NCBI RefSeq assembly: GCF_020905345.1
Contig: NZ_JAJJMO010000001.1
Span: 372,001-436,000, forward strand
Origin: Flavobacterium pisciphilum
GTDB taxonomy: Bacteria; Bacteroidota; Bacteroidia; Flavobacteriales; Flavobacteriaceae
Length of the DNA stretch: 64,000 nucleotides
Direction of reading: 5' to 3'
Under the pieces are notes generated by a model. The model was not told the origin of the DNA. It worked only from the letters and a program-made list of their open reading frames with translations, and ran no database searches. How positions within the stretch are numbered: the first letter of the stretch is position 1; each line of letters opens with the position of its first letter. Of the stretch, positions 5,175 through 31,135 are shown one piece after another. The translations under genes were made by a program, and so were the position numbers.

Positions 5175-5306
5175 AAGATCTAATAATTATGAGTTAATCA
5201 TTTATAAATTATAATTTGTAATTCTATACTTAAACCTAATTTGTAAGTTCGTTTCTTCATTAACAATCCAATTTTGTTTACTTACAACTTGAGTTTAAAT
5301 TATTAG

Positions 5307-5374
5307 CAAAATTATAGTCTAGTTCTTACTAAGAACTGCCACATAAACTTTTAAAATCAGCATAAAAAGTTACA
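5307..5374 (-). promoter_or_regulatory. Promoter module A (collagen-like gene)
   Basis: Read on the minus strand: TGATTTTAAAA, 7 bases, TGGCAGT, exactly 20 bases, then the -7 box TAATTTTG (5314-5307). The predicted transcript start near 5300 leaves a leader of about 125 nt. The same module with identical spacing precedes four other sites in the first 20 kb. TGGCAGT and TGATTTTAAAA are the weakest matches of the five. Confidence 0.6.
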
Positions 5375-5474
5375 AATGACTCGAAACAAAATAAATCATA
5401 GCTCTTTAATTAACTCAAAATGCTAAACATCTTAAAAACAGCCTGAAATAGAACTGAAATCAAATAATATTGCA

Positions 5475-5519
5475 TAAAAAAAAGGGCTTGACTTTTACTA
5501 AAAGCCAAACCCTTTTTTT
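5475..5519 (-). terminator. Terminator after the ompA gene
   Basis: A hairpin (AAAAAGGGCTTG... pairing with ...AAACCCTTTTT, with an inner ACTTTT/AAAAG stem) is followed on the minus strand by a T-run. It lies about 30 nt past the ompA stop and separates that operon from promoter module A. Confidence 0.7.
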
Positions 5520-5548
5520 ACCTAAACCAATCTTTTTTACTTCACTTT

Positions 5549-7786
5549 TTATTCTTTTATTGCAATAATAAACTCCGAACGTCTGTTTAATTCGTGTTCC
5601 GCTTCTGAACATTTTACACCGTTTCTACAGTCATTTATAAGTTGGGATTCTCCGTACCCATCCCCTCTAACTCGATCTCTAGAAATTCCTCCTTCAAGAA
5701 TAATATAATCCATGGTCGTTTTAGCCCTATTTTTGGACAATCTTAAGTTGTAATCATCCTTACCTCTGCTATCTGTATGCGATTTTACTTCTATTGAAAT
5801 ATTGGGACGGCTCTTAAGAATACTAATTATTTTATCCAGTTCGAGTTTTGACGATTTACGAATCGTATATCCGCCATAATCAAAGTAAATAGGACTTAAT
5901 TTCAATTTATTTGTAAGATCATCTCCATCTTTCAAAGTAATTACTTTATCATCAACTATAACCGAGAATTCATTAAATAAAGCAATTGGTATTTCTATCT
6001 TTTCAGAAATTTTATGTCCATCAACAACTATTCTCTCTACTCCAAATCCTTCTTTTTTAAATTCGAAATTATAATTCTTTAATGGTAACAAATTCAACGA
6101 ATATTTACCCAATTCATCCGTAAACACTGTTTCAATGCGCTCATTCAAATTATCAAAAATGCTTATTTCAACATTGCGTAATGGCTCTCCTGTTATGCTA
6201 TCCTTTACTATTCCAAAATAAACAGGCTTAATATCAAAAGGAAAAACAACTGGCTTTGTTTCTAAGAATTTATACAAATCATCATCTCCTTTCTCTCCTT
6301 TTCTATTAGATGAGAAAAAACCTCTTTTTGAATCGTTATCTATAACATAAGCAAAATCATCACTTGATGAATTTATAGGTTTCCCGACATTAACAACTGT
6401 ATAGTTCCCTTCACTATCTTTTGCAGCAGCGAAAATGTCTAATCCTCCTAAACCAGGATGCCCGTCAGAAGAAAAATATAATATTCCGTTACTGTCTACA
6501 AAAGGGAATGTTTCTCTCCCATATGTATTTATTTCATCCCCTAAAGGCTCCACTTTATTAGCAAAACCACCTCCTTGTTTCCTGCTTACCACATATAAAT
6601 CGGTATCGCTCATTTTCTTTTTTCTATTCGAAACAAAATACAATTCATCATTATCTGGGCTTAATGCTGGATGTGCCGATGAGGTTCCTTCCATATTAAT
6701 GGGGTAAGGAAGTTCTTTTATCTTAACCCATTTATTATTCTCTTTTTGTGCCTGAAAAAGCCTTAGGTCTGCAATTGCCGTTTCGCTTTTTGTTTTATCA
6801 TTTGGTACCAATCTAGTAAAATACATTGTTCTTCCATCATTTGTTATTATTGGTGTACTCTGATGAAACTTTGTATTGATATCTCCAAGTAATTTTTTCT
6901 CATTTTGCAATTTTCCGTCTTCATCAATTTGTGCCGAATATAATTTAAGAAAAGGCTTTTCGTTCCAGCTATGCTTACGCTTGATGAAAAACCCAGAATC
7001 TTTGGCAGTAGTATAGATCACCTCTTTGTACTTAGGCAATTTTTCAAAAAGATTGTTTTTTTTATTCCCAATTGAAGCATCAAATGATTTTATTGAATCA
7101 TTTTTTTTTACATTTTCTCCTTTGCTCTTATTTAGGCCTTTCCATCTTTCGACTTGCCCATTATTATCCTCTTTTTTTCTTTTTTGAGCATTCTCTCTTA
7201 TAATTCTTGCCTTTTCTTGTTTTTCAAATTGAGCAATTTCAAGAGCTTGTTTAATAGCCTCTTCATTAGGTACGAATGCTATCCCAAAATCTGAAAAAAT
7301 CGAGTTTGTTCCTGCCTCTCCCAGCTCGTCGTATCTACCCGACTGTTTTTCTATAGCTTTCAGATATTCTTTTTTATCCCATTTTTTTGTTTCATCAACA
7401 TTTCCAACTCCATTATACTTAGCTTGTATTGCTAGTGGTACTTGTTCATTATTATTTGCTCTAAAGCATACAGCATATCTATGATAATACTCTGGAGCGG
7501 TATAAGTACTCCCTTCTATCATTTTTGTATACCATTTTAAAGCATTAGAATAATCAGAATTAAAAAAATAAGTATCACCCAAACGAGCATATACTTCTTT
7601 AGATTCATATCCATTTTCAATCAATTGTTCGTATAGCTTTCCTGCTTGCACAAAAGCAAATTCATCGTATTTTTCATTAGCGATTGCCAATTTTTTTTCT
7701 AGTTTTTGATCCTGCTTTTGAGAAAAACCGATAGCACTACTAAAACAAAATAGCATAACAAGTACTTTGTGTATTTTTATTCCCAT
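5549..7786 (-). CDS. OmpA-family protein with TPR, PD40 and CarboxypepD-like domains
   Basis: 745 residues with an N-terminal signal peptide. A TPR-like region (~25-110, KLYEQLIENGYESKEVYARL) is followed by a charged linker. WD40/PD40-like propeller blades lie at ~290-500 (LSPDNDELYFVSNR; SNGILYFSSDGHPGLGGLDIF). A carboxypeptidase-regulatory-like domain spans ~525-600. The C-terminal OmpA peptidoglycan-binding domain (~630-745) has IEVKSHTDSRG and NRRSEFII. This architecture is typical of OmpA partners of PorP/SprF proteins in type IX secretion accessory operons, anchoring outer-membrane complexes to peptidoglycan. It lies 22 nt behind the porP/sprF-like gene and is surely co-transcribed. No large type B adhesin is adjacent, which is unusual. 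Confidence 0.9.
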   Translation of the reverse strand: MGIKIHKVLVMLFCFSSAIGFSQKQDQKLEKKLAIANEKYDEFAFVQAGKLYEQLIENGYESKEVYARLGDTYFFNSDYSNALKWYTKMIEGSTYTAPEYYHRYAVCFRANNNEQVPLAIQAKYNGVGNVDETKKWDKKEYLKAIEKQSGRYDELGEAGTNSIFSDFGIAFVPNEEAIKQALEIAQFEKQEKARIIRENAQKRKKEDNNGQVERWKGLNKSKGENVKKNDSIKSFDASIGNKKNNLFEKLPKYKEVIYTTAKDSGFFIKRKHSWNEKPFLKLYSAQIDEDGKLQNEKKLLGDINTKFHQSTPIITNDGRTMYFTRLVPNDKTKSETAIADLRLFQAQKENNKWVKIKELPYPINMEGTSSAHPALSPDNDELYFVSNRKKKMSDTDLYVVSRKQGGGFANKVEPLGDEINTYGRETFPFVDSNGILYFSSDGHPGLGGLDIFAAAKDSEGNYTVVNVGKPINSSSDDFAYVIDNDSKRGFFSSNRKGEKGDDDLYKFLETKPVVFPFDIKPVYFGIVKDSITGEPLRNVEISIFDNLNERIETVFTDELGKYSLNLLPLKNYNFEFKKEGFGVERIVVDGHKISEKIEIPIALFNEFSVIVDDKVITLKDGDDLTNKLKLSPIYFDYGGYTIRKSSKLELDKIISILKSRPNISIEVKSHTDSRGKDDYNLRLSKNRAKTTMDYIILEGGISRDRVRGDGYGESQLINDCRNGVKCSEAEHELNRRSEFIIAIKE

Positions 7787-7808
7787 AATTAATTTTAATT
7801 AGTTTTAT

Positions 7809-8744
7809 TTAGAAAAATCTTGGTGACATCATTCTATTTTTTGACCTGCTCAATAACTCAAATCTCAAAAAGATTTCATGAGATCCTGAATTATAGTTTG
7901 CTAGTTTAGTTGTTTCTGCATCATATGAATACCCTACAAACCAAGAATCTGAAACTTGAAACCCTACAAGACCACTTACCGACGCACTCCAACGATAAGC
8001 AACACCTGCAGTAAATTTTTCATTGAATAAAAAATTTGCTGAAATATCTGTTTGCAACGGAGATCCCTGCACAACTTTTGTTAATAAGGAAGGTTTGAAT
8101 TTTAAATTGTAATCTAAATCAAAAACATAACCTGCCATTAAATAATAATGCATACGATCTTTTACAACATAACTTTCTGACTCATCCTTTGCTGATTTAT
8201 TAAAATATTTTTTCTCTAACATATTCGGAATAGAAAGTCCGATATAGGATTTACCAGAATGAAGATATACCCCTGCTCCAATATTTGGTGAGAATTTATT
8301 ATCGATATTATATTGAAACCTAGGATCTGAAGGATCTTGAATATTAAGTTTATTAAAATCAACATTCAACAAGTTAGCTGTTCCTTTTAATCCAAAGGAC
8401 AGTTTATAAAATGGTGACGTATCAATTGAATATGAAAAATCTACTGATAAATTATTCTCTGTTGAAGGTCCAATACGATCATTAATTACAGAAATTCCTA
8501 ATCCCATATTTGAACTAATGGGAGTATTAACTGAAACAGTATTGGTCACTGGTGCTCCATCCAGTCCAACCCATTGGGTTCTATGCATTCCGAAAACACT
8601 AAGTGTACCTCGCGAACCTGCATAAGCTGGATTTATATTAATTGTGTTATACATATATTGGGTATACTGAGCGTCTTGTTGTCCTAACATAGTACTAGAA
8701 TAACAACATAATATAACTGCTATAAATAAATTTAATTTTTTCAT
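7809..8744 (-). CDS. PorP/SprF-family type IX secretion membrane protein
   Basis: 311 residues with a signal peptide ending ..STMLGQQ. The mature start QDAQYTQYMYNTININPAYAG is the family hallmark, and GMHRTQWVGLDGAP and a C-terminal SHEIFLRFELL beta-strand also fit. Family members are outer-membrane beta-barrels; SprF is needed to attach the SprB adhesin in Flavobacterium johnsoniae, and others serve type B substrates. This is the first gene of a two-gene operon with the OmpA protein, driven by promoter module B. The substrate is unknown; the collagen-like protein next door, or the ~690-residue proteins sharing its promoter type, are candidates by inference only. Confidence 0.9.
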   Translation of the reverse strand: MKKLNLFIAVILCCYSSTMLGQQDAQYTQYMYNTININPAYAGSRGTLSVFGMHRTQWVGLDGAPVTNTVSVNTPISSNMGLGISVINDRIGPSTENNLSVDFSYSIDTSPFYKLSFGLKGTANLLNVDFNKLNIQDPSDPRFQYNIDNKFSPNIGAGVYLHSGKSYIGLSIPNMLEKKYFNKSAKDESESYVVKDRMHYYLMAGYVFDLDYNLKFKPSLLTKVVQGSPLQTDISANFLFNEKFTAGVAYRWSASVSGLVGFQVSDSWFVGYSYDAETTKLANYNSGSHEIFLRFELLSRSKNRMMSPRFF

Positions 8745-8771
8745 TTTTATACTATTTATTTAAAATATGCC

Positions 8772-8836
8772 CAAAATTATGGCTTCAGATTTTTTTGGCA
8801 CTACCACATAAATTCATAAAATCATCACTAAAAGAC
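8772..8836 (-). promoter_or_regulatory. Promoter module B (porP/sprF-ompA operon)
   Basis: Minus strand: TGATTTTATGA, 7 bases, TGGTAGT, 20 bases, TAATTTTG (8779-8772). The transcript start near 8765 gives a leader of about 20 nt. TGGTAGT sits where the usual flavobacterial -33 TTG box would be. Confidence 0.7.
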
Positions 8837-8991
8837 ATAGTACATAAACAACTGTATATCAGTATTTTTAAATAGTAAATTAATTTAGGATTTACTTTTT
8901 GATGGGAAGTTTTCGATTGCAAATTATAAGCATAGAAACTTAGCAATCTAATAGCAATGTATTTATATACATTTAAGCCTTAAAACTAAAA

Positions 8992-9016
8992 ACCCGACTA
9001 CATTATGCAATCGGGT
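8992..9016 (-). terminator. Terminator of AraC pair 1
   Basis: ACCCGA/TCGGGT stem around CTACATTATGCAA, with a T-run on the minus strand. A near-identical hairpin ends AraC pair 2 (11678-11702), so the terminator was duplicated together with the pair. Confidence 0.75.
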
Positions 9017-9068
9017 AAAATCTATATCCAAAAAAAATAGACTCATCAAAAATTAGCTCAAATTGTAT

Positions 9069-10067
9069 TTATTTTGCTTTAAATACTACATTAGGCAAAT
9101 AGCCATGATACTGTTTAAATACCAATGAAAAATAGGAGGTCTTATTGTACCCTAATTCATAAGCGATGTCGCTAATTAATTTAAATTTTCCGCTTTGCAA
9201 TAATTCTTTTGCTAGTATTAATTTTTCATTTTTAAAATAAGTCGCTGGACTCATGCCAAATACACTAGCATATAAATTTCTATATTTTGAAATCGACATA
9301 TGGGCAATTTCAGCTAACACTATAATTCCTGGGAAAGGAACCATCAAATTAGATAATAAATACTTTTGTGTTTTCATGATGGCTGTTAAATCCTTTTCTA
9401 AAAACAATCCTACTTTGGGCATATTAGAATTTAGCCTTTCAACAAAATAACCAAAAAGTTTATAAGTGGCACTTTTTAGTAAAAACTCATAATTCATAAG
9501 ATCCATCTTTTGTTGTTTTAAACTGTGTAACACAACTTTGCTTCTGCTATCTATATGTCCATAATAAAACATTTTTCTCGTTTTATCATCAAAAACATTT
9601 TTGAAGTCTTTATCTAAAAATTCATCTTGAAAATACGTTTTTATAAACGATTTGCGAATATACAATCTCAAAGAAAATGATCTTTGTCCAACCTGAGAAA
9701 CATAAGTGCTTTTATGGTTGCTATCCATAATAGCAAAGCCAAGCTTGGATTTATACCCTATATTATGTTTGACATTGTCTACAAAATGTTTGCTAAAATT
9801 ATCACTCATATCATAATAAATAATCCAAAAATCCTCCTCAGACGGCATTCGTGTTAAGCGCATGGGTTTGTGTAGCACCAGATCAACAATAAGTATTGAT
9901 ATATCAGGACTAATCTCCATAAAATAACTAGAACCGCTAGCCTTGCTCTCAGGAAAATACATTAATTTATTATTGACTCTTGTACATCCCAACCTATCAG
10001 CAAAATCTTGTTGCCATTCAGGTGTTAATGATGTAGTATGTTTAAATTCCGGAATTGTTATATCCAT
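9069..10067 (-). CDS. AraC-family regulator, type A, pair 1
   Basis: 332 residues from MDITIPEFKHTTS. The longer frame starting at 10121 would overlap the upstream gene by 47 nt, and the paralogue at 11736-12731 aligns from this Met, so I chose 10067 (7 nt after the upstream stop). The N-terminal ~200 residues form an uncharacterised sensor-like domain (ASGSSYFMEISPD; EDFWIIYYDMSDNFSKH). The C-terminal two-helix-turn-helix AraC domain includes FPGIIVLAEIAHMSISKYRNLY and ISDIAYELGYNKTSYFSLVF. It is the second gene of a pair with a type B regulator. Tight spacing suggests a heteromeric regulator, which is inference. Confidence 0.85.
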   Translation of the reverse strand: MDITIPEFKHTTSLTPEWQQDFADRLGCTRVNNKLMYFPESKASGSSYFMEISPDISILIVDLVLHKPMRLTRMPSEEDFWIIYYDMSDNFSKHFVDNVKHNIGYKSKLGFAIMDSNHKSTYVSQVGQRSFSLRLYIRKSFIKTYFQDEFLDKDFKNVFDDKTRKMFYYGHIDSRSKVVLHSLKQQKMDLMNYEFLLKSATYKLFGYFVERLNSNMPKVGLFLEKDLTAIMKTQKYLLSNLMVPFPGIIVLAEIAHMSISKYRNLYASVFGMSPATYFKNEKLILAKELLQSGKFKLISDIAYELGYNKTSYFSLVFKQYHGYLPNVVFKAK

Positions 10068-10074
10068 ATTCTTT

Positions 10075-11055
10075 TTAAAATAAACTTTGATATTCCTTTG
10101 GAAAAACGCCATACATCTCATTAAATCGTTTTGCTAAATAAGAAACATTCGCATAGTTTAATTTATGAGCCACTTCATTTACTGTAAACTTTCCTGTTTC
10201 TAGTAACTCTTTGGCACGATATAATTTATTATTGTAAAAATAGGTTCCTGGATTCACCCCAGAGATTTTGGCAAATAACTTCTTGTATTTTGAAGGGGAC
10301 ATAGAAACTTGTTCTGCCAAAAAAATCACACCAGGAAACGGTCCCTCAATATTACTTTGCAGCATCGCTTTTGAGGTTATAATGCTCTTTATATCAACAT
10401 TGATTGTTTTGTCTATAATAATTTTTTTATTTCCTAACTGATTCAGATAATTGCCTATTAATCCATAAATAAGACCTTTAAAATAAGTTTCATATAAGGG
10501 ATTATCATAGGGTGTTTTCCTAAAATCTTTTATTAAAATTAAACTATCAAGACACATACGATCCAAACGGATAATTGTATTTTTTTCAGCATCAAGAATT
10601 ATATTTGCAATTGGTGCTATTTTGGTTATTTTAGCAAAATACTTTTTTAAAGCTTCCTTATCAAATAGAATACAAATGACAAATATTCGAGTGCCATTTC
10701 TAACAATATAATGCATGTCTATTGCACAATCTACAACAGATAAATTAAAATTTAATTTTCCTATCAAAGTTGATTGCTTTTCTATAATGAATTCAACATC
10801 CAAATTAGTGAGATAAAAATACAGCCCTATAAAATTGGAGTTTTCATTGTGATATTTTAATAATACCTCTTCTTTATATGTTGTGTCAACCAACATAGCA
10901 GTAATGCCATCTTCTATTGGTAAAACAAAATGGGTTCCTTTCCAAATTTCATTATCACCTTTAATAAAATTTCCCTCTATAGAACCTCCTATGGCTTCAG
11001 CTAATACATCAATCCAATCCTGTTCTGTATTGTTGTTATGTGCAATTGTTTTCAT
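10075..11055 (-). CDS. AraC-family regulator, type B, pair 1
   Basis: 326 residues. The N-terminal domain (DWIDVLAEAIGGSIEGNFIK...) parallels the type A partner in layout but is clearly diverged. The C-terminal AraC DNA-binding domain contains FLAEQVSMSPSKYKKLFAKI and VNEVAHKLNYANVSYLAKRF. It is the paralogue of 12740-13720. The only promoter-like signal I see upstream is module C, about 500 nt before the start. That would place this regulator pair in the same regulon as the surface genes, possibly autoregulated. Confidence 0.85.
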   Translation of the reverse strand: MKTIAHNNNTEQDWIDVLAEAIGGSIEGNFIKGDNEIWKGTHFVLPIEDGITAMLVDTTYKEEVLLKYHNENSNFIGLYFYLTNLDVEFIIEKQSTLIGKLNFNLSVVDCAIDMHYIVRNGTRIFVICILFDKEALKKYFAKITKIAPIANIILDAEKNTIIRLDRMCLDSLILIKDFRKTPYDNPLYETYFKGLIYGLIGNYLNQLGNKKIIIDKTINVDIKSIITSKAMLQSNIEGPFPGVIFLAEQVSMSPSKYKKLFAKISGVNPGTYFYNNKLYRAKELLETGKFTVNEVAHKLNYANVSYLAKRFNEMYGVFPKEYQSLF

Positions 11056-11560
11056 ACTAAAAGTTTAACTTATAATTTCATAATTCTTATTAATAAAAAC
11101 TCTAAAAAAAAGCTAACCGCTTGCAAAAAACTAGTCCAATTATTTACCAATAATAGGTTGTAGTTATATTGTGTTTTGCATAAATAGCTAGAATTTTTAA
11201 TAGATAATTTATTTAAGAAATCATTTTCCCTCTACATTCTCTAAAGTATAATCAAGAATTCAACCATGAAGCCCATTTTTCTTTATCCAAAACTTTTTTC
11301 AGAATCAGTTTCTCATAAATGCTTCAGGTTTTCATGCTCCTAGTCTGATAAGTCATATTTATATTATCATTTTTTTTAGGATATCTTTGTATGTTAAATG
11401 AACATTAACTATATATTATTTATGCTCATTATCTTTTTAATACATATTAATTATTATTACATTTGTTTTCATTTCTACAGATTACTCTTACATATTTTTA
11501 TTTATAACTAAATCAACGTTTTGTGATTTCTTTTAACAAAAATAGTATTAGAGTATATTA
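11056..11560. other. Long AT-rich leader/intergenic region
   Basis: About 505 bp between the type B regulator start and promoter module C. It is very AT-rich. I see no convincing reading frame, hairpin terminator or homology to neighbouring genes. If module C drives the AraC pair, this is an unusually long 5' leader. Otherwise it is what remains after loss of a gene that module C once served. Confidence 0.4.
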
Positions 11561-11628
11561 CAAAAGTATATCGGACATAGCTCTTTAAACTACCACAGAT
11601 ACTCATAAAATCAACATGAAAAGTTACA
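11561..11628 (-). promoter_or_regulatory. Promoter module C (upstream of AraC pair 1)
   Basis: Minus strand: TGATTTTATGA, 7 bases, TGGTAGT, 20 bases, TACTTTTG (11568-11561). The geometry matches modules A, B, D and E, although spacer and flank sequences are unrelated. It sits between the terminator of AraC pair 2 and AraC pair 1, just as module B sits after the terminator of pair 1. Confidence 0.6.
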
Positions 11629-11677
11629 TGACGCAAAATGAGTTGCCTTGTTTTTAAACCTTTTCAAGCAAAAAAAA

Positions 11678-11702
11678 TCCCGATTACATCATGCAATCGG
11701 GA
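11678..11702 (-). terminator. Terminator of AraC pair 2
   Basis: TCCCGATT/AATCGGGA-type stem around ACATCATGC, followed on the minus strand by a T7 run, about 34 nt after the type A stop. Confidence 0.8.
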
Positions 11703-11735
11703 AATAGTATTCATTTCTAAATATGATTTATTCTA

Positions 11736-12731
11736 CTAAGATGCCTTAAGCACAGTATGCGGTAAAACGCCAAAGTAATCTCTAAAAATAGACGAAAAGT
11801 AGGTGGTCTTATTATAACCTAATTCATAAGCTACATCACTAATTAATTTAAAATCACCACTTTCTAGTAATTCTTTTGCTAATATTAATTTTTCGTTTTT
11901 AAAAAATAAAGCAGGGCTCATTCCAAATATAGTATTATATAAGCTTCTATATTTTGTAGGCGACATATGTGCAATATTTGCTAAGAATTCTATTCCTGGA
12001 AATGGAGATGCTAGATTGGACAACAAATACTGTTGACTAAGCATGACCGCATCAATGTCTTTTTCGAAGTGAGTTCCAGTATTAGGCATTTTAGCTTTTA
12101 ATCTTTCTATTAAATATCCCAATAAAGTAAAAACTGATCCTTTTAATAAAAATTCATAACTAGGATTGTCTATATTTTGCTGCTTTAAACCATGCAATAT
12201 CACTTTACTTCGACTATCAATATGACCATAAAAGAACATTTTCTTTCTTTCATCATCAAAGATTTCTTCAAAATCCTTCTCAAATTCTGAATCATTAAAA
12301 AATGTTTTCATGTATGATTTACGAATAAGCAGTCGTAATGAATAAAACCGTTCTCCTACTGTAGCCAAATAACTACTCGCAATCTTGTTATCTACAATCG
12401 CAAAATTTAGTTTTGACTTATACCCTATTTTATGACTTACATCATCTACGATGTGTTTACTAAAACTCTCGCTCAAATCATAATAAACAATCCAAAAATC
12501 ATCTTCATAAGGCATTCGCATAAAGTGAATCGGTCTATTTAAAACCAAATCAATAATATCAACAGATACATCTGGGAGAATTTCCAAAAAATAACTAGAG
12601 CCACTAGCCGTTTCAGGAGGTAAACTCATAACATTATCTACAATTTTAGCATCTAACTCATTAACAAATTTTTGTTGCCATGCAGGTGTTATGGAATAAA
12701 AGTGTTTAAACTCGAGGGTTAAATTACTCAT
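11736..12731 (-). CDS. AraC-family regulator, type A, pair 2
   Basis: 331 residues, close paralogue of 9069-10067 along its whole length. Shared features are TPAWQQKFVNEL, TASGSSYFLEILPDVS, DDFWIVYYDLSESFSKH and a C-terminal AraC domain with LISDVAYELGYNKTTYFSSIF. It starts 8 nt after the stop of its type B partner, the same gap as in pair 1. The conserved order B then A and the matching terminators show that the two-gene unit was duplicated. Confidence 0.85.
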   Translation of the reverse strand: MSNLTLEFKHFYSITPAWQQKFVNELDAKIVDNVMSLPPETASGSSYFLEILPDVSVDIIDLVLNRPIHFMRMPYEDDFWIVYYDLSESFSKHIVDDVSHKIGYKSKLNFAIVDNKIASSYLATVGERFYSLRLLIRKSYMKTFFNDSEFEKDFEEIFDDERKKMFFYGHIDSRSKVILHGLKQQNIDNPSYEFLLKGSVFTLLGYLIERLKAKMPNTGTHFEKDIDAVMLSQQYLLSNLASPFPGIEFLANIAHMSPTKYRSLYNTIFGMSPALFFKNEKLILAKELLESGDFKLISDVAYELGYNKTTYFSSIFRDYFGVLPHTVLKAS

Positions 12732-12739
12732 GAATATAT

Positions 12740-13720
12740 TTATAATAAATTTTGGTATTCTTTTGGGAAGATCCCGTATTTGCTATTAAATCGCTTTGCT
12801 AAATAAGAAATATTTGCATAATTTAATTTATCCGCAACCTCGCTAACTGTATATTGTCCTGTTTCTAATAACTCTTTGGCGCGTTCTATTTTTTTGCCAT
12901 AAAAGTAACTCCCAGGACTTAATCCAGAAATTTTAGTAAATAGCTTTTTATATTTTGATGGTGACATAGACACTTTTTCTGCCAAAAAATCCACTCCTGG
13001 AAATACTTCATCAATAGACTCTAATAACATGACTTTGGAGACAAGAATACTCTTTACATCATCACTCATTACCTTACCAATTATAAATTTTTTAGTCAAT
13101 AATTGCTCTAGATAATTTCCGATTAAATTATTTATCAATCCTTTAAAATAAAAATTAAACAACGAATTATCATACGTTATTTTCATAAAATCTTTTATTA
13201 AAGCAGCACACTCCGTATTCATTCGATCCATCCACACAATAGTATTCTTTTCAGCATCAAAAATATCCTTGGTAATTGCTTTTAATGCTGGAATTTTGTC
13301 CATATATCCTCTTAGTAATGTTTTATCTATGTATATACTAATTATATATGTTCTATTATCTTTGTTAATTACATAATTAAAATCTAAAACACAATCCATA
13401 ATTAATAAATTATAATCTTGCTTGCCTATTAATGTAGCTTCATCATCTAAAATAAAATTAATATCTTGGTTCAAAACATAAAAATAAAACCCTATAAAAT
13501 GATCCACATCATTTTTAAATTCTAATAATGTGGTATCTTTATAAGTAACATCTCCCATCATGGCAGATCTATTATTATCCCATGGCAAAACATAATGTGT
13601 TCCTTCGTATAATTCGTTATTTCCTTTAATAAAATTTCCATCAATAGTACCTCCCAAGGCTTTCGCCAATATATCAATCCATTCTAAATCCGCACCACGT
13701 CTAAGAGTTATCACTTTCAT
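12740..13720 (-). CDS. AraC-family regulator, type B, pair 2
   Basis: 326 residues, paralogue of 10075-11055 (EWIDILAKALGGTIDGNFIK; FPGVDFLAEKVSMSPSKYKK; VSEVADKLNYANISYLAKRF). It is the first gene of the second pair. I found no copy of the TGGTAGT promoter module upstream, so the two pairs may differ in regulation. Confidence 0.85.
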   Translation of the reverse strand: MKVITLRRGADLEWIDILAKALGGTIDGNFIKGNNELYEGTHYVLPWDNNRSAMMGDVTYKDTTLLEFKNDVDHFIGFYFYVLNQDINFILDDEATLIGKQDYNLLIMDCVLDFNYVINKDNRTYIISIYIDKTLLRGYMDKIPALKAITKDIFDAEKNTIVWMDRMNTECAALIKDFMKITYDNSLFNFYFKGLINNLIGNYLEQLLTKKFIIGKVMSDDVKSILVSKVMLLESIDEVFPGVDFLAEKVSMSPSKYKKLFTKISGLSPGSYFYGKKIERAKELLETGQYTVSEVADKLNYANISYLAKRFNSKYGIFPKEYQNLL

Positions 13721-14044
13721 AAGAAAAAAATGTTTATTATAAAATTAATAAAAAACGCTCAGAATCACCCCTATAATTTCATTATAATCACTCTAAATAC
13801 TAGGCTTCAGACAAAATATATGCACTTATTTTTTCATGAGAAACATCCTAAAAAAAGAAGTTAAATTAATTATTTTTTATATTATTTTTCTTTCTATTTA
13901 TGCAAAATGTTTAGCTTGGCAAATAACAATAAGCAAAAGAAAAATCAATACTTCTCCATCTTTTTAAATTGTGAATATCTATTTCATGAATTGTTGATTT
14001 CTTTTTCATTAAAATCTATCTTTGACACCCTTAAAAAAAAATAA
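13721..14044. other. Divergent intergenic region, AraC pair 2 / DUF4494
   Basis: 324 bp, AT-rich. On the plus strand it holds the promoter of the DUF4494 gene. On the minus strand no clean TAnnTTTG box was found for the AraC pair. No gene is seen. Confidence 0.5.
13994..14024 (+). promoter_or_regulatory. Canonical flavobacterial promoter for the DUF4494 gene
   Basis: TTG (13994-13996), 20 bases, TATCTTTG (14017-14024). The predicted start near 14031 leaves a leader of about 14 nt. It has the ordinary TTG -33 box, in contrast to the TGGTAGT modules nearby. Confidence 0.6.
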
Positions 14045-14590
14045 ATGAGCACAATTTGGTACGAATGCAAAGTAAAATATAGAAAGACAGATGATATTGG
14101 AACACAAAAGGTTACAACTGAACCTTATTTGGTAGATGCTTTATCTTATACAGAAGCTGAAACCAGAATTAATGAAGAAATGTCTGCCTATATTAGTGAA
14201 GAATTTAAAATCACAAATATAAAAATGGCTAATTATGCCGAAATTCACCCTTTTGAAAATGCAGATCGTTGGTTTAAATCAAAAGTTTCTTTAATGGCGT
14301 ATGACGAAGAAAGTGGTAAAGAACGTAGATCAAACATGTATATATTAGTTCAAGCCAATGACGTAAAAGAGGCTTATGACAATACAATTGCTATAATGAA
14401 AAACACCATGGGTGATTACACTATTCCTGCTATTGCTGAATCTCCTATTATGGATGTTTTCCCTTATTTTAGTGGTGAAGAAGGAGAAATGGAACAATTG
14501 GAAAGATTCAATGCTCTTAAGGCTTCAAAACCAGAATTGGTTGCTGCTGGAGAAACAGGAGATGATTTTGTTGGAGCAGAAAGTGAATAA
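14045..14590 (+). CDS. DUF4494 family protein
   Basis: 181 residues, soluble and acidic, no signal peptide (MSTIWYECKVKYRKTDDIGTQ...). The first ~140 residues match my recollection of DUF4494, a Bacteroidota family of unknown function. The C-terminal tail is acidic (GETGDDFVGAESE). This is the only intact copy; two 3' fragments lie at ~16929-17130 and ~20003-20164, downstream of duplicated genes. It is convergent with the ~690-residue protein gene, separated by a strong hairpin. Confidence 0.75.
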   Translation: MSTIWYECKVKYRKTDDIGTQKVTTEPYLVDALSYTEAETRINEEMSAYISEEFKITNIKMANYAEIHPFENADRWFKSKVSLMAYDEESGKERRSNMYILVQANDVKEAYDNTIAIMKNTMGDYTIPAIAESPIMDVFPYFSGEEGEMEQLERFNALKASKPELVAAGETGDDFVGAESE

Positions 14591-14619
14591 TACACTTTAA
14601 CTTTTATAATCGTTTATGA

Positions 14620-14644
14620 GAAGAGGACTTTTTTAGTCCTCTTC
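14620..14644 (+). terminator. Terminator of the DUF4494 gene
   Basis: A perfect GAAGAGGACT/AGTCCTCTTC stem with TTTTA loop, then a T-rich run. A degenerate copy follows the third DUF4494 fragment near 20188-20212. Confidence 0.85.
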
Positions 14645-14690
14645 TTTATTTATATATGGACTTTATAAAATAGAAAAAGCCATTAAACAC

Positions 14691-16775
14691 TTACTCTATT
14701 ATTTTATCAATACATGTTTGCTCAATACAGTTCCAAGTAGTACCATTATAAAGCTTTAAACAATTACTGATAGTATCGTAAACAAGCATTCCTTCAACTG
14801 GGATAGCAATAGTTATTTCTGGTGAAGCAACTTTACTAATTGCAAACCCTTTTTCTTTAGATTCTAAAATTAAAGCTCCGTTTCTTTGATTCACTGCAGG
14901 GTGATTTTTACGATCCAGACTAGAAATAATTGTCAAAGAACCTGCTTGCGTACCTATAACAATACCCGGTTTATAACAAACTCCACACGTGTGATCAAGT
15001 GTAATAACAATAGAACTAGAAGGAGACACACAGTTGTATTTTTCAGAATAATAATACGCAGTATAAGTTCCGCTAGTAGTAACGGCTGTAGGATCTATAA
15101 CCACTACTCCTTTCGCATCTTTCCAAACTAAAACTGTTCCAAATGGTTTTGAGGATGTAACAAGACTATTTAAATCTAAAGCCAAATCTTGACAAATTAC
15201 TCCTTTATTTACTAAAATTGGGGCTTCATCACCCGCTGCACAAGAAAAAATCACTTTATTATTACTAGTATAACTACCTGATGTCGTACCAAAATTCATT
15301 GAAATACCGATACCATTATCAATATTAAGTCCAGGGTTTATAGTATTTTTAAAAGTCATCTCACTTCCTAAATTAGCATTTAATAAACCATAGTAAGCAG
15401 AAAAATAACCACTCCACGGCACGCCTCCAATATACTCAAAAGCTTCATAGGAAGGTTCTCTTGTTACTCCAACAACCAAATTAGGGGCTGTACCAGATAC
15501 AAATCCTGGCCCAACATCTTTCCCTTCCAGATAAGAATCCCAACCATGTGCCAATTTCACTTCTTCAGTATTCCCAGATGGTATAGTTATCGAATAATCT
15601 ATAAAAAAATAATTATCTGGAAGATTATAAACATATTTTACTGTCAAATCATAAGTCAAGCCATTTTTGACAGCAGCGAGTTTGATTTCATTTTTAAAAT
15701 GACCAAGAGAATATTCTATATGACTTTGTTGTGTACTGCTAACAACCTCTAGCCTCGTTCTAGGTAACGTTGTTAATAATAATGTTCCACCAGTAAAATA
15801 AGTATTGCCAACAGAAAGTACGATACCATGTGTACTCCCTGGAACACCATATAGATCTGAAGTACCTTTAACTAAATTGTTGCCCGAACTATATATTTGA
15901 TTCGAATTTTTCCTTCGGACTTGCATATTTGCAGCACCTGATAAAGTAATTCTAAGTCCATCATCTGCATTTGTCCCACCCGTTTTGTTTATCACTGTTT
16001 GGCCATAGAAACTAGCTTTGCAGCTATCCTCATTGTCATTACGAATAAAACGATATAATTGTCCACTTGCTGGGAGTTTATCTATATTAGAGATAAAATT
16101 TATAGAAGCGACAGGATTTACACCACTATTATGCAACCATAATTGTTTAGCTTCCACAGTTAAATCAATGCCGTTAAATATACCAATAGAAGCGGCGCTT
16201 GTGTTTGTATTTAAATTTGGCTCCTGATTATAGATATATTCTATACTATTGGTTCCTTCATACAACTTAACCTGAAAAGAAATTACAGGCGAAGAAGCAT
16301 TATAAGCCCACTTCCAGTTTTTCCACTCCGCAGTAAGAACCCTATTTGGTGCTACACCTGTAGTACGATATGAAAAAACTCCACCAACTCCACTTAAATC
16401 ATCCCATAAAGGAGCTAGTAAAGTCAGGTTATTAGGATATAGTGAGACAATTGAGTTCTCTTCAACAAAAAAAGGAAAATTAAAAGAGATAGTTCCATTT
16501 GAACTAGCATAAAAATCATAGTAAATTTCACATCCAAATTGAAAAGAAAAGCCTATGGGTAACTTACCACTCCCAATATTATCAGAACTAAGGGTTGGAA
16601 CAACTTCTCCCCCTGTAAGATAATTAAAGGTGCTATTCTCGCTTTTAAAAGTATATGGGATACTTGGCTTTTCACGCCCTCCCCCCTGAGGTTGCTGAGC
16701 AACAATCTTTACTGGGCACCAAAGTAGCAGTACAAAAATTACTATTTTATAACTATCTAATAAAAAATATCTCAT
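14691..16775 (-). CDS. Secreted surface protein, ~690-residue family, copy 1
   Basis: 694 residues with a signal peptide (ends CPVKIVAQ). Residues ~45-230 contain FNYLTGGEVVPTLS and YASSNGTISFNF, the beta-rich N-terminal module common in Bacteroidota adhesins. The middle (~250-520) is unrecognised. An Ig-like stretch (~540-600, TTSGTYTAYYYSEKYNC) is followed by a C-terminal module ending EGMLVYDTISNCLKLYNGTTW. No type IX sorting domain is visible. The 3' half is almost identical in DNA to copy 2, while the 5' part is clearly diverged. Unlike copy 2 it lacks the downstream 168-residue gene. Transcribed from promoter module D. Function unknown; a surface or matrix role is inferred. Confidence 0.8.
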   Translation of the reverse strand: MRYFLLDSYKIVIFVLLLWCPVKIVAQQPQGGGREKPSIPYTFKSENSTFNYLTGGEVVPTLSSDNIGSGKLPIGFSFQFGCEIYYDFYASSNGTISFNFPFFVEENSIVSLYPNNLTLLAPLWDDLSGVGGVFSYRTTGVAPNRVLTAEWKNWKWAYNASSPVISFQVKLYEGTNSIEYIYNQEPNLNTNTSAASIGIFNGIDLTVEAKQLWLHNSGVNPVASINFISNIDKLPASGQLYRFIRNDNEDSCKASFYGQTVINKTGGTNADDGLRITLSGAANMQVRRKNSNQIYSSGNNLVKGTSDLYGVPGSTHGIVLSVGNTYFTGGTLLLTTLPRTRLEVVSSTQQSHIEYSLGHFKNEIKLAAVKNGLTYDLTVKYVYNLPDNYFFIDYSITIPSGNTEEVKLAHGWDSYLEGKDVGPGFVSGTAPNLVVGVTREPSYEAFEYIGGVPWSGYFSAYYGLLNANLGSEMTFKNTINPGLNIDNGIGISMNFGTTSGSYTSNNKVIFSCAAGDEAPILVNKGVICQDLALDLNSLVTSSKPFGTVLVWKDAKGVVVIDPTAVTTSGTYTAYYYSEKYNCVSPSSSIVITLDHTCGVCYKPGIVIGTQAGSLTIISSLDRKNHPAVNQRNGALILESKEKGFAISKVASPEITIAIPVEGMLVYDTISNCLKLYNGTTWNCIEQTCIDKIIE

Positions 16776-16844
16776 TAAAAAAAAATTATATTAACTACTC
16801 CATTTTATCAATTACAAACATTATAATCATATCTTAATTAAGGA

Positions 16845-16910
16845 CAAAGTTAGAAAGACATTTTCCCTCATTACTACCATTTAAAATCATAAAACCAATA
16901 CAATAAGTCA
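16845..16910 (-). promoter_or_regulatory. Promoter module D (surface protein copy 1)
   Basis: Minus strand: TGGTTTTATGA, 7 bases, TGGTAGT, 20 bases, TAACTTTG (16852-16845). The leader is about 60 nt. Confidence 0.65.
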
Positions 16911-16928
16911 TCTTAAATTAAAAGGTTC

Positions 16929-17130
16929 TTTATGAAGAAAGTTGTTAAAGAACGTAGCTCAAACATGTACATATTAGTTCAAGCCAATGACAAAAGAGGC
17001 TTATGACAATACAATCGCTATAATGAAAAATACCATGGGTGATTACACTATTCCTGCTATTGCTGAATCTTCTATTATGGATGTTTTCTCTTATTTTAGT
17101 TGTGAAGAAGGAGAAATGGAACAAATAGAA
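16929..17130 (+). pseudogene. DUF4494 3' fragment, copy 2 (frameshifted)
   Basis: Closely matches roughly 14306-14510 of the intact gene (GYNTMGDYTIPAIAES-type region, 'EEGEMEQ'). A 2-base deletion after GCCAATGAC breaks the frame. The fragment then jumps from 'GAAATGGAACAA' straight into the sequence that lies beyond the terminator in copy 1. It has no start and no promoter, and is a relic of tandem duplication. Confidence 0.8.
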
Positions 17131-17157
17131 AAAGCCATTCTTAACAGGAATGGCTTT
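17131..17157. terminator. Hairpin after DUF4494 fragment 2
   Basis: AAAGCCATTC, 7-base loop, GAATGGCTTT. It is probably the terminator for the minus-strand 168-residue gene (17218) as well. A related hairpin is at 20245-20274, and the first arm only survives near 14670. Confidence 0.7.
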
Positions 17158-17217
17158 ATTGACTCTCTTTGAAGTCACAGATTGTAAATTTACATTATCA
17201 AGTTTTAAATCTTTTAT

Positions 17218-17724
17218 TTATTTCCAAAACGACCATTCATTCCCATTATAAATACACATCACTTTTTTGACGGTATCATAACAAATTGTACCCGCCATAG
17301 GTTTAACTATATTTAAATGAGGAGAGCCCACTTTAGGTAATATCAATGCTTTATCGGTAGTTTGCAAAACAAGTACTCCTTTTACTGAACTGCTTAAATC
17401 TCCAATAACTGTTCCCCCATCTACTTCTGGAATTCCATTTTGTTCTAACAAATTTACAGCACCAGTATTTATAGATAAATCTATCCAAGTTACACCGTTA
17501 TAATACATAACTTTTTTTTGAATAGCATTATAAATTAACATGCCTGGAGTTAAAGCAATTCCTGTAGGTAATGTAGTTACCCAAGGTAAAACGATTCCTG
17601 AAACACCTCCTGTACCAAAATCTAATATTCCTGAACCTTCTACATTGTGCTTGCCAATTGCCACTTGGGCGTTTGCAGTTAATCCAGCACCAATCGTCAA
17701 AATTATAAATAATATGTTTTTCAT
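17218..17724 (-). CDS. Small secreted protein with two 'YNG..W' modules
   Basis: 168 residues with a signal peptide (ends LTANAQ). It contains two copies of a short motif: GMLIYNAIQKKVMYYNGVTW (~75-95) and GTICYDTVKKVMCIYNGNEW (~145-165). The same motif ends the ~690-residue proteins and, more loosely, the N-terminal module of the collagen-like protein. It begins 27 nt after the stop of copy 2 of the ~690-residue family and is therefore co-transcribed with it. Probably a surface partner; function unknown. Confidence 0.75.
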   Translation of the reverse strand: MKNILFIILTIGAGLTANAQVAIGKHNVEGSGILDFGTGGVSGIVLPWVTTLPTGIALTPGMLIYNAIQKKVMYYNGVTWIDLSINTGAVNLLEQNGIPEVDGGTVIGDLSSSVKGVLVLQTTDKALILPKVGSPHLNIVKPMAGTICYDTVKKVMCIYNGNEWSFWK

Positions 17725-17751
17725 TTTTCAAGTTGATTATTAATTAAATAC

Positions 17752-19821
17752 TTACTCTATTATTTTATCAATACATGTTTGCTCAATACAGTTCCAAGTA
17801 GTACCATTATAAAGCTTTAAACAATTACTGATAGTATCGTAAACAAGCATTCCTTCAACTGGGATAGCAATAGTTATTTCTGGTGAAGCAACTTTACTAA
17901 TTGCAAACCCTTTTTCTTTAGATTCTAAAATTAAAGCTCCGTTTCTTTGATTCACTGCAGGGTGATTTTTTCGATCCAGACTAGAAATAATTGTCAAAGA
18001 ACCTGCTTGCGTACCTGTAACAATACCCGGTTTATAACAAACTCCACACGTATGATCAAGTGTAATAACAATAGAACTAGAAGGAGACACACAGTTGTAT
18101 TTTTCAGAATAATAATACACCGTATAAGTTCCGCTAGTAGTAACGGCTGTAGGATCTATAACCACTACTCCTTTTGCATCTTTCCAAACTAAAACTGTAC
18201 CAAATGGTTTTGAGGATGTAACAAGACTATTTAAATCTAAAGCCAAACCTTGACAAATTACTCCTTTATTTACTAAAATTGGGGCTTCATTTCCCGCTGC
18301 ACAAGAAAAAACCACTTTATTATTACTTGTATAACTACCTGATGTTGTACCAAAATTCATTGAAATACCGATACCATTATCAATATTAAGTCCAGGGTTT
18401 ATAGTGTTTTTAAAAATCATCTCACTTCCTAAATCATCATTTAATAAACCATAGTAAGCAGAAAAATAACCACTCCATGGCACACCTCCAATATACTCAA
18501 AAGCTTCATAGGAGGGTTCTCTTGTTACTCCAACAACCAAATTAGGGGCTGTACCAGATACAAATCCTGGCCCAACATCTTTCCCTTCTAGATAAGAATC
18601 CCAACCATGTGCCAGTTTAACTTCTTCAGTATTGCCAGATGGTATAGTTATCATATAATCTATAAAAAAATAATTATCTGGAAAATTATAAATATATTTT
18701 ACTGTCAAATAATAAGTCAAGCCATTTTTGACGGCAGCGAGTTTAATTTCATTTTCAAAATGACCAAGAGGAGATTCTATATGGCTTTGCAGTGTACTAC
18801 TAACAACCTCTAGTCTATTTTTAGCTAACGTTTCTAATAATGTTCCACCAGCAAAATAAGTATTCCCAACAGAAAGTACGATACCATGTGTACTCCCTGG
18901 AACACCGTATGGATCTGAAGTACCTTTAACTAAATTGTTAACAGGATTATATATTTGATTTAAATATTTCCTTCGGATTTGCATATTTGCAGCACCTGAT
19001 AAGGTAATTTTAAGTCCATCAACTGTATTTGTCCCACCCGTTTTGTTTATTATTGTTTGTCCATAGAAACTAGCTTTACAGTGATCGTCATTGTCATTAC
19101 GAGTAAATCGATATAATTGTCCATTTGCTGGGCGTTTACTTATATTAGAGATAAAATTTATAGAAGCGACAGGATTCACACCACTATTATTCAACCATAA
19201 TTGTTTAGCTGGCGCATTAAAATCAATACCATTAAATATACCAATAGAAGCGCTTGAGTTTGTATTTAAACCTAGCTCCTGATTATAGATATATTCTATA
19301 CTATTGGTTCCTTCATACAACTTAACCTGAAAAGAAATTACAGGCGAAGAAGCATTATAAGCCCACTTCCATTTTTTCCACTCCGCAATAAGAACCCTAT
19401 TTGGTGCTACACCTGTAGTACGATATGAAAAAACACCACCAATTCCACTTAAATCATCCCATAAAGGAGCTAGCAAAGTCAAATCACTAGGAACTAGCGA
19501 GGCAATTGAGTTGTTTTCACGAATAAAAGGAACATTAAAAGAAATTGTTCCATTTGAACTAGCATAAAAATCAGAATAAATTTCACATCCAAATTGAAAA
19601 GAGAAACCTATGGGCAACTTATCACTCACACTATCATCAAAACTAAGGGTTGGAACAACTTCTCCCCCAGTAAGGTAATTAAAAGTGCTACTCTCACTTT
19701 TAAAACTATATGAGATACTTGGTCCCCCCCACTGTGCTTCCTGAGCAATACTATTTACTGGGCACCAAAATAGCACTACAAAAATTACTATTTTATAACT
19801 ATCAAATAAAAAATATCTCAT
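17752..19821 (-). CDS. Secreted surface protein, ~690-residue family, copy 2
   Basis: 689 residues, same architecture as 14691-16775: signal peptide, FNYLTGGEVVPTLS module, unrecognised middle, Ig-like stretch, C-terminal NGTTW module. The last ~300 residues are almost identical to copy 1, whereas the first ~400 carry many substitutions and small indels (for example QWGG for QGGGREK near residue 30). This pattern points to gene conversion of the 3' half. It heads an operon with the 168-residue gene under promoter module E. Confidence 0.8.
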   Translation of the reverse strand: MRYFLFDSYKIVIFVVLFWCPVNSIAQEAQWGGPSISYSFKSESSTFNYLTGGEVVPTLSFDDSVSDKLPIGFSFQFGCEIYSDFYASSNGTISFNVPFIRENNSIASLVPSDLTLLAPLWDDLSGIGGVFSYRTTGVAPNRVLIAEWKKWKWAYNASSPVISFQVKLYEGTNSIEYIYNQELGLNTNSSASIGIFNGIDFNAPAKQLWLNNSGVNPVASINFISNISKRPANGQLYRFTRNDNDDHCKASFYGQTIINKTGGTNTVDGLKITLSGAANMQIRRKYLNQIYNPVNNLVKGTSDPYGVPGSTHGIVLSVGNTYFAGGTLLETLAKNRLEVVSSTLQSHIESPLGHFENEIKLAAVKNGLTYYLTVKYIYNFPDNYFFIDYMITIPSGNTEEVKLAHGWDSYLEGKDVGPGFVSGTAPNLVVGVTREPSYEAFEYIGGVPWSGYFSAYYGLLNDDLGSEMIFKNTINPGLNIDNGIGISMNFGTTSGSYTSNNKVVFSCAAGNEAPILVNKGVICQGLALDLNSLVTSSKPFGTVLVWKDAKGVVVIDPTAVTTSGTYTVYYYSEKYNCVSPSSSIVITLDHTCGVCYKPGIVTGTQAGSLTIISSLDRKNHPAVNQRNGALILESKEKGFAISKVASPEITIAIPVEGMLVYDTISNCLKLYNGTTWNCIEQTCIDKIIE

Positions 19822-19889
19822 TAAAAAAAAATTATATTAACTACTCCATTTTATCAATTACAAACATGTAATCATATTTTAATTAGGGG

Positions 19890-19955
19890 CAAAGTTAGAT
19901 ATACATTTTTCCCCATTACTACCATTTAAAATCATAAAATAAATACAATAAGTCA
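19890..19955 (-). promoter_or_regulatory. Promoter module E (surface protein copy 2 operon)
   Basis: Minus strand: TTATTTTATGA, 7 bases, TGGTAGT, 20 bases, TAACTTTG (19897-19890). The leader is about 60 nt. It resembles module D in flanking sequence because both belong to the duplicated unit. Confidence 0.65.
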
Positions 19956-20002
19956 TCCTAAATTAAAATTATACAGCTAAAGACATTGATTCAAATCAAA
20001 AG

Positions 20003-20164
20003 TCTCTTTATGAAGAAAGTGATAAAAAACGTAGGTTAAACATGTACATATTAGTTCAAGCCAATGATGTAAAAGAGGCTTATGACAATACAATCGTTAT
20101 AATGGAAAATGCTATGGGTATTTATACTATTCCTGATTTTATTGGAGCTGAAGCTGAGCAATAA
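20003..20164 (+). pseudogene. DUF4494 3' fragment, copy 3 (internally deleted)
   Basis: Reads in frame as LYEESDKKRRLNMYILVQAND, then VKEAYDNTIVIMENAMG, and ends TIPDFIGAEAEQ-stop. About 50 codons between TIP and FxGAE of the intact gene are missing. No start codon with a promoter is seen. It is followed by a degraded copy of the DUF4494 terminator. Confidence 0.75.
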
Positions 20165-20244
20165 CTTTGCTTTTATAATCGTTTATAAGAAGAGTGATTT
20201 TTTAGTCCTCTTTTTTATTTATCAACACGGACTATTTAAAATAG

Positions 20245-20274
20245 AAAAGCCATTCCTATTAAGGAATGGCTTTT
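20245..20274. terminator. Bidirectional hairpin upstream of the MFS gene end
   Basis: AAAAGCCATTCC/GGAATGGCTTTT stem with a T6 run on the plus strand. It lies about 50 nt past the end of the minus-strand MFS gene and terminates it. Confidence 0.75.
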
Positions 20275-20326
20275 TTAGATTCATTTTGAAGTCACAGAAT
20301 GTAAATCTGTGCTACTTAGGTTTACA

Positions 20327-30418: not shown

Positions 30419-31135
30419 CTAAGGCAATAAATTTAAATTGTCAAGCAAGATTTGATATTTCCTTCCAATAGGTAAAACTTCGGCATTACTCATCGTCAAA
30501 GTTTTAGACGTTAGCGTTCGTATTGCATGTTTGTTTACTATAAACGATCGATGTATTTGTATAAAGTTTACATTATCAATCTCTTTTGCAATACTAGAAA
30601 GCGATCCATATATGATAATGGGGATATCTAACTTATTGCTATATAGTTTCATGTAGTTGCCTAGACTTTCTATATAAATGATCTCTTTTAAAAGTATAGT
30701 TGCCATTTGACCATTTATACGATAAGAAAGCACTCCATCTTGATAACTGTTTTTTTCTTTTAAGCTTTTACCAGAAAAATAGGCTTTTGCTTTATTAACT
30801 GCTTTACTAAATTTTTCAATAGAGATAGGCTTCAGCAAATAATCGATAGCATCGTTTTCATAAGCGGAGAGAGCAAAATCAGAATAGGCTGTAGTTACAA
30901 TAGTAAGCGGGCGATTGGGCTGCAATTCCATTAACTCTACACCAGATATAACTGGCATATTAATATCCAGAAAGATAATATCATAGATGTTTTCATTGAG
31001 CATTTTTAAGGCCTCCATACCACTAAAGGCACTTCCTGAATGTTCTAGATCATCATATTTTGCAATATGTGAAGCTAAAGCTTTGTGAGCAGGCGTCTCA
31101 TCATCTATTATAAGGCAGCGGTAGGTAAATCCCAT
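30419..31135 (-). CDS. LytTR-family response regulator
   Basis: 238 residues. The receiver domain (~5-120) has IIDDE at the start and the phospho-acceptor in IIFLDINMP. The LytTR DNA-binding domain (~140-238) has IIYIESLGNYMKLY and FIQIHRSFIVNKHAI. It overlaps the 3' end of the upstream histidine kinase gene by about 28 nt. Likely targets are the MacAB-type operon downstream and the divergent outer-membrane gene at 32.3 kb. Confidence 0.9.
   Translation of the reverse strand: MGFTYRCLIIDDETPAHKALASHIAKYDDLEHSGSAFSGMEALKMLNENIYDIIFLDINMPVISGVELMELQPNRPLTIVTTAYSDFALSAYENDAIDYLLKPISIEKFSKAVNKAKAYFSGKSLKEKNSYQDGVLSYRINGQMATILLKEIIYIESLGNYMKLYSNKLDIPIIIYGSLSSIAKEIDNVNFIQIHRSFIVNKHAIRTLTSKTLTMSNAEVLPIGRKYQILLDNLNLLP

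Follow-up and report, generated by a model that had tools for sequence, protein, structure and literature searches.

A conserved, activator-like promoter module precedes surface-protein genes and adjoins paired AraC-family genes in Flavobacterium pisciphilum

Promoters of Bacteroidota differ from those of model bacteria, and to our knowledge little has been described of activator sites in this group. The closest described counterparts of the element considered here are the class II promoters of the AraC/XylS family, such as AraC at I1-I2, XylS at Pm and MtlR at PmtlE, where tandem direct half-sites at or upstream of the -35 element are read by proteins combining a C-terminal double helix-turn-helix (HTH) with a cupin sensor. 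AraC and XylS operators have a 21-bp geometry. The MtlR site consists of direct repeats and spans 37 bp or more ahead of the -35 element (PMC4514859). Here, we analyze a promoter module that recurs at five sites, A to E, within 64,000 nucleotides of Flavobacterium pisciphilum DNA (contig NZ_JAJJMO010000001.1, positions 372,001 to 436,000; hereafter the window), among two AraC-a/AraC-b gene pairs and genes for surface proteins. By analogy, these sites may work in the manner of AraC/XylS class II activation, and the four proteins are AraC/XylS members by domain content. Unlike the described class II systems, the window sites combine a Bacteroidota -7 box with no -33 element, two different AraC genes stand side by side, and the genes controlled would encode surface proteins and partners of type IX secretion rather than sugar or aromatic catabolism.

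Other known systems share individual features with this locus. RhaS and RhaR are two adjacent AraC-family regulators acting on linked promoters, and the window likewise has neighboring AraC-family genes with linked promoters; it differs in that its AraC-a and AraC-b are distant full-length homologues (25% identity), one pair lies behind another, and the targets are surface genes. Tandem repeats of about 21 bp near -35 also suit LytTR regulators, although by eye the window motif does not match the LytTR consensus. In Flavobacterium, sigma-54 with motif SM5 controls remFG-sprCDBF, and the ECF-like SM6 controls genes of the type IX secretion system (PMC9723704). These systems also regulate SprF-type and surface adhesin genes, but through other core boxes, whereas the window module retains the -7 box of sigma-A. 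The main text of the same F. psychrophilum start-site map does not contain the word AraC (PMC9723704), and literature searches, which were not taken to full texts, turned up no description of such a module.

All five sites lie on the minus strand and share one layout, TTTTATGA-N7-TGGTAGT-N20-TAnnTTTG, in which both spacers have exactly the same length throughout; places, strand and spacers are as described in a first-pass annotation of the sequence. Site A (5307-5369; operator 5369-5339, -7 box TAnnTTTG 5314-5307) precedes a collagen-like gene, and site B (8772-8834; operator 8834-8804, box 8779-8772) precedes a PorP/SprF gene. Site C (11561-11623; operator 11623-11593, box 11568-11561) lies between the two AraC pairs, following pair 2 and preceding pair 1. 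Site D (16845-16907; operator 16907-16877, box 16852-16845) precedes the gene of a 694-aa secreted protein, and its duplicate, site E (19890-19952; operator 19952-19922, box 19897-19890), that of a 689-aa protein. The surface-gene targets proposed earlier are thus found at A, B, D and E. The core matches without mismatch in B, C, D and E and with three mismatches in A, where TGATTTTAAAA occupies the position of an upstream 11-mer and TGGCAGT replaces TGGTAGT. This 11-mer had been taken as common to all five sites, but TGATTTTATGA is exact in B and C only, D carrying TGGTTTTATGA and E TTATTTTATGA. The conserved stretch also begins earlier than the module as first drawn, with an invariant CTT 13 bases before TTTTATGA. 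The gap between -7 box and open reading frame measures 132 bases at A, 27 at B, 69 at D and 68 at E, and at C 505 bases separate the box from the nearest AraC gene; these values replace the 20-125 nt given previously.

In the F. pisciphilum genome, matches to this layout are confined to the window. Across the 5,457,213 bases of the genome, five core matches occur at up to three mismatches, all in the window, against one for a reversed control pattern. Within the window, the N7/N20 combination has five matches, while the other 98 spacing pairs have 14 together and at most three each. The absence of further genome matches at this stringency implies a local cluster rather than a genome-wide regulon.

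The module persists at matching loci in other species. Scanning genomes with the AraC-a protein yielded ten loci, eight in Flavobacterium and two in Pedobacter. In the other Flavobacterium loci, sites orthologous to C are present in 8 of 8, and those orthologous to B and to A in 6 of 8 each; one locus (L065) has no PorP gene within the stretch examined, and the stretch of another (L069) ends before the PorP position. The 25 sites from the window and its relatives align without gaps over 73 columns, 21 of them invariant, with unchanged spacing. Conservation spans the invariant CTT through GTGGTAGT to the -7 box. In the spacer, which is A-rich at its start, conservation is partial, and most flank positions lie near background. 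The placement of site C before an AraC pair holds as to order, but in six relatives (L062, L063, L064, L066, L067 and L068) site C is followed first by a 70-86-codon open frame, which lies between C and pair 1. This small frame contains stops in L065 and is missing from L069, its L062 copy has no Pfam match, and the window retains only a weak remnant of it at 11055-11560 (tblastn E 0.1). Separately, an extra AraC-b-like piece lies between pair 1 and site B in L062 (14864-15484, 206 aa) and L063 (14771-15490, 239 aa).

All 25 sites contain the sigma-A -7 box TAnnTTTG, and 24 of them lack a -33 TTG, a TTG standing 17-23 nt before the box in a single site. The printed Bacteroidota consensus is TAnnTTTG/TTTG for -7/-33 (PMC2483708). 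The first-pass description of an ordinary -7 box with the -33 TTG replaced extends to the relatives. The missing TTG, together with the constant distance to the -7 box, suggests that these promoters need an activator, and the activator-dependent promoter proposed earlier is supported by the fixed geometry across species and the sigma-A box as well. Judged by sequence, an activator-type operator directly adjoins an ordinary sigma-A -7 box in this module, a real and conserved pattern of activator-like form.

The candidate activators are encoded between the sites, on the same strand. Pair 1 comprises AraC-a (10075-11055, 326 aa) and AraC-b (9069-10121, 350 aa as called), and pair 2 comprises AraC-a (12740-13720, 326 aa) and AraC-b (11736-12731, 331 aa). 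All four match the C-terminal AraC DNA-binding domain PF12833 at 54-57 bits (56.8, 54.4, 56.3 and 54.3, in the order given), above the curated cut-off of 33.6. Membership in the family is backed by PDB profile and fold matches, and an N-terminal cupin-type sensor domain is predicted; the model and fold match of pair 2 AraC-b combine a cupin-like N-terminal domain with the AraC DNA-binding domain. AraC-a and AraC-b align along their full length (hhalign, 321 columns), and the two pairs are paralogous (71.8% over 1438 bp).

A weight matrix built solely from the sequences of the 25 aligned sites scores sites A to E at 43-61 bits in their own genome. The next best place, at 23.8 bits, stands ahead of a 1097-residue gene and some 150 bp behind a further AraC pair; it is followed by places at 19.0 bits, with no AraC gene near, and 15.8 bits, behind the neighboring pair. 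The five window sites thus stand alone, as in the core-pattern search of the genome, and the regulon proposed in the first-pass annotation amounts here to a local cluster. A genome-wide regulon was accordingly rejected, no added site of the window variant scoring above 23.8 bits in this genome.

Among 249 sampled Flavobacterium genomes, including that of the window, 13 matches of at least 29 bits occur in three genomes, 11 of them being training sites. The same three genomes alone hold AraC-b at 55% identity or more (Fisher test 4e-7, uncorrected for shared descent). Because the window variant at this score is found only in the three genomes with close AraC orthologues, the AraC pairs are probably the activators. 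Both new matches are fourth sites. The one in G226 lies at the opposite end of the cluster, before a 697-residue homologue (50%) of the 689-residue window protein that is accompanied by a 63% homologue of the 168-residue protein, and the one in G004 precedes a 1290-residue protein. Below 29 bits, full-length matches near an AraC pair occur in G275 (25.0) and G127 (22.5). In the window's genome and 99 relatives, core-pattern matches stay at about the control level, except in G004, which has seven, three of them at the orthologous locus; at up to two mismatches, no further ones occur save a single match each in G004:C21 and in G063 (another family; one mismatch). Iterating the matrix at a low threshold swelled the set to 1082 sites, which do not count as evidence and served only as a source of places in L072, L073 and L075, picked by eye for comparing operators between loci. 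An operator-only matrix found 0 sites above its reversed-sequence threshold, because the reversed control itself reached 22.1.

The window sites are related to a wider operator class. In several loci, other AraC pairs too adjoin PorP/SprF, OmpA and large surface genes, with CHU_C type IX signals. We compared 36 AraC-pair neighborhoods outside the training set with 20 control stretches from such genomes. The best matrix scores at the AraC-pair loci are 29.7, 24.7, 23.6 and 18.7, the control maximum being 3.5; 11 of the 36 loci exceed that maximum and 25 do not (one-sided rank test 4e-4, with three of the best test loci known beforehand, L074 by eye and L147 and L167 from profile matches, and with six loci that have profile matches of up to 30.9 but no AraC pair excluded from the controls). 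At least two test loci and one control contain runs of N. Independently of any matrix, CTTA[AT]T and CTT[AT]T pair 43 times at a spacing of 21, against 3-10 pairs for any other spacing between 12 and 33 and two pairs at spacing 21 in the control stretches. Of these 43 pairs, 37 fall between genes; 15 of the 43 are followed by an AnnTTTG box at offset 21 and two by one at offset 22. With one mismatch allowed, 34 of the 36 loci contain 143 intergenic spacing-21 pairs, compared with 46-68 at spacings 17-20 and 22-25, and controls show no excess. The longer patterns G[TAC]CTTATT and [CT]CTTA[TA]T peak at 23 and 22 instead of 21, because they start two or one bases earlier.

The window motif fits this class best in register, with a correlation of 0.535 at shift 0 and 0.316 at the next best of 31 shifts. 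Both Pedobacter loci have one such operator behind the AraC pair, with the box at offset 21 by hand count; the DNA there is nearly identical in the two, and since a loose scan gave many chance matches, only the match directly behind each pair was used. Tandem direct half-sites about 21 bp apart at the core promoter, as in AraC-type class II sites, are thus found by way of the wider class. Several types of small gene recur beside its members. Proteins of about 150 aa, receiver-like by eye, are encoded behind the wider operator and near AraC pairs (L149 8129-8590, without Pfam match; L274 7129-7578; and others). Small secreted genes, barrel-like by eye, lie behind similar operators in L233, L241, L248, L253, L254, L257, L261, L263 and L266, and many operators before small barrel-like genes share a tail near TGTAAGTCTAATCTTAGTTTTG.

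Several explanations other than activation by the AraC pairs were considered. AraC proteins can repress, and the operator abuts the promoter, as would that of a repressor overlapping the -33 region; as 24 of 25 sites lack the -33 TTG and the operator keeps fixed distances from the -7 box, we regard repression as improbable. A history of copying is evident in parts of the cluster: D and E, genes included, go back to a recent duplication (92.7% identity over 2233 bp), which reduces the five copies first reported to fewer independent ones, and the AraC pairs are themselves paralogous. It is nevertheless very improbable that the sites are just DNA left by duplication and under no common regulation. 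Among sites A, B and C, 25 of 31 positions of the operator agree, yet the upstream flanks are unrelated (8-10 of 30 identical), on which grounds copying alone was rejected as the origin of their likeness, and across species the elements persist while most flank positions drift. Shared elements at fixed spacing are also what sigma-specific promoters have, and an alternative sigma factor was the other option of the first-pass annotation. We give it hardly any credence: no core box unlike that of sigma-A was found, the -7 box being the sigma-A consensus in 25 of 25 sites, and the upstream element exceeds 30 bp, has tandem repeats and varies by 11 bases between loci in its distance to the box. The alternative-sigma motifs in the F. 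psychrophilum start-site map also differ (PMC9723704).

Alternatively, the same kind of operator may be bound by a more widely held regulator, whether another AraC-type, a LytTR-type or an OmpR-type protein, that controls surface genes in large-genome Flavobacterium, leaving the AraC pairs as bystanders. We consider this rather unlikely, although a number of observations favor it or otherwise weigh against the AraC link. A strict form of the wider pattern has 61 exact matches in 32 of the 249 genomes (control 5). Fourteen of these 32 genomes lack the AraC-pair family, which is present in 26 of the 249 (weakly in G189 and G274), and 6 of the 61 matches lie within 10 kb of a pair. In 53 neighborhoods holding 54 of the 61 sites, a count that leaves out seven sites including the six near a pair, the AraC-pair family occurs in 0 and any AraC-type HTH in 4, compared with 1 and 6 of 20 controls. 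With no such AraC gene near, the operator precedes genes that by eye are mostly of surface or secreted type (members of site A's collagen-like family and small barrel-like, receiver-like or lipoprotein-like genes) and also an ArsR-like gene. Since the wider operator is common where no such AraC gene is near, another regulator can use this kind of site, and adjacency alone does not prove the AraC link. Among genomes of at least 4.6 Mb (hand count), the association of operator and AraC-pair family is weak (16 of 22 versus 14 of 31, one-sided p 0.04). Full-length profile matches below 29 bits also occur with no AraC pair near (G198:C22, 22.8; G004:C21, 22.6; G008:C6, 22.4). In the window sites, the second half-site survives in part, as does the GG, but its first C is lost, and because this half-site is degenerate, the class membership of the sites rests on the wider class. 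Sites D and E are as close to the sites of pairs 3 and 4 (21-24 of 31 positions) as to A to C (21-23), and a T[AC]nnTTTG box is absent at the L073 site, which blurs the case for an operator variant private to the cluster. Finally, protein and operator co-vary modestly (Spearman 0.34, Mantel p 0.029), a relation confounded by descent.

Against a more widely held regulator stands the specificity of the window variant, which at scores of at least 29 bits is restricted to genomes carrying close orthologues of the AraC proteins, and the genome of the window itself contains 0 matches to the strict wider pattern. Sites A to C are closer to one another than to the sites of other AraC-pair loci in that genome, with which they share 13-21 of 31 positions, a rule that D and E break. 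Over all 249 genomes, the operator is found in 18 of the 26 with the AraC-pair family versus 14 of the 223 without it (p 4e-13). A form with offset 22 matches 16 times across 13 genomes (control 0), with 6 of these matches near an AraC pair, and the near-pair shares of both forms, 6/61 and 6/16, far exceed the expectation by area at an assumed mean genome size of 3.7 Mb. The AraC pairs, named as first candidates in the first-pass annotation, remain the best candidate regulators.

On balance, we favor, with modest confidence, the reading that sites A to E are activator-dependent sigma-A promoters served by the embedded AraC pairs; these pairs probably activate the A to E promoters and are the best-supported regulators of this cluster. 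In this mechanism, an AraC/XylS-type operator of about 31 bp, with two tandem half-sites of 21-bp period and a GG end, would lie at and just upstream of the missing -33 element, its fixed distance from TAnnTTTG allowing the bound activator to contact RNA polymerase. The activators would probably be the two AraC-a/AraC-b pairs, each acting as a tandem dimer or an a-b heterodimer with a cupin domain that may sense a ligand, and they would switch on the neighboring genes for a type IX secretion partner and for surface proteins. Lying downstream of pair 2 and upstream of pair 1, site C could add a cascade or feed-forward step. A more tentative extension, possible but short of what we would assert, is that activator promoters are widespread in Bacteroidota, with a 21-bp tandem operator replacing the -33 element in helical phase with the -7 box, and that surface and type IX clusters with their own AraC-a/AraC-b pair and operator dialect form separately switchable modules.

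The genes behind the sites are all on the minus strand. Site A is followed by the gene of a 1723-aa collagen-like repeat surface protein without Pfam match, recognized from its sequence (3-5174). The first gene after site B encodes a PorP/SprF family type IX secretion membrane protein (7809-8744; PF11751 312 bits, TIGR03519 298.3 bits, cut-off 90.55), and next comes a PD40/OmpA-like outer-membrane protein (5549-7786). The 694-aa secreted protein after site D (14691-16775) has no Pfam match; the 689-aa secreted protein after site E (17752-19821) is its duplicate, behind whose gene the 168-aa secreted protein is encoded (17218-17724). A neighboring DUF4494 gene (14045-14590) has partial copies upstream of D (16934-17131, 93.5%) and E (20012-20135, 87.9%), which are probably traces of the duplication. 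Across 4800-20500, no Rfam match to a structured RNA was found at the gathering threshold. Elsewhere in the window (30419-32106), a response-regulator-like gene and its neighbor resemble, by eye, a LytTR-type two-component system.

Taken as a whole, the finding provides a testable operator, a likely regulator and its targets, and it ties AraC pairs to genes of type IX secretion partners. The module also offers regulated promoters for Flavobacterium genetics. If the proposed regulation is true, it would show how a genome with several paralogous surface-protein clusters could express them separately.
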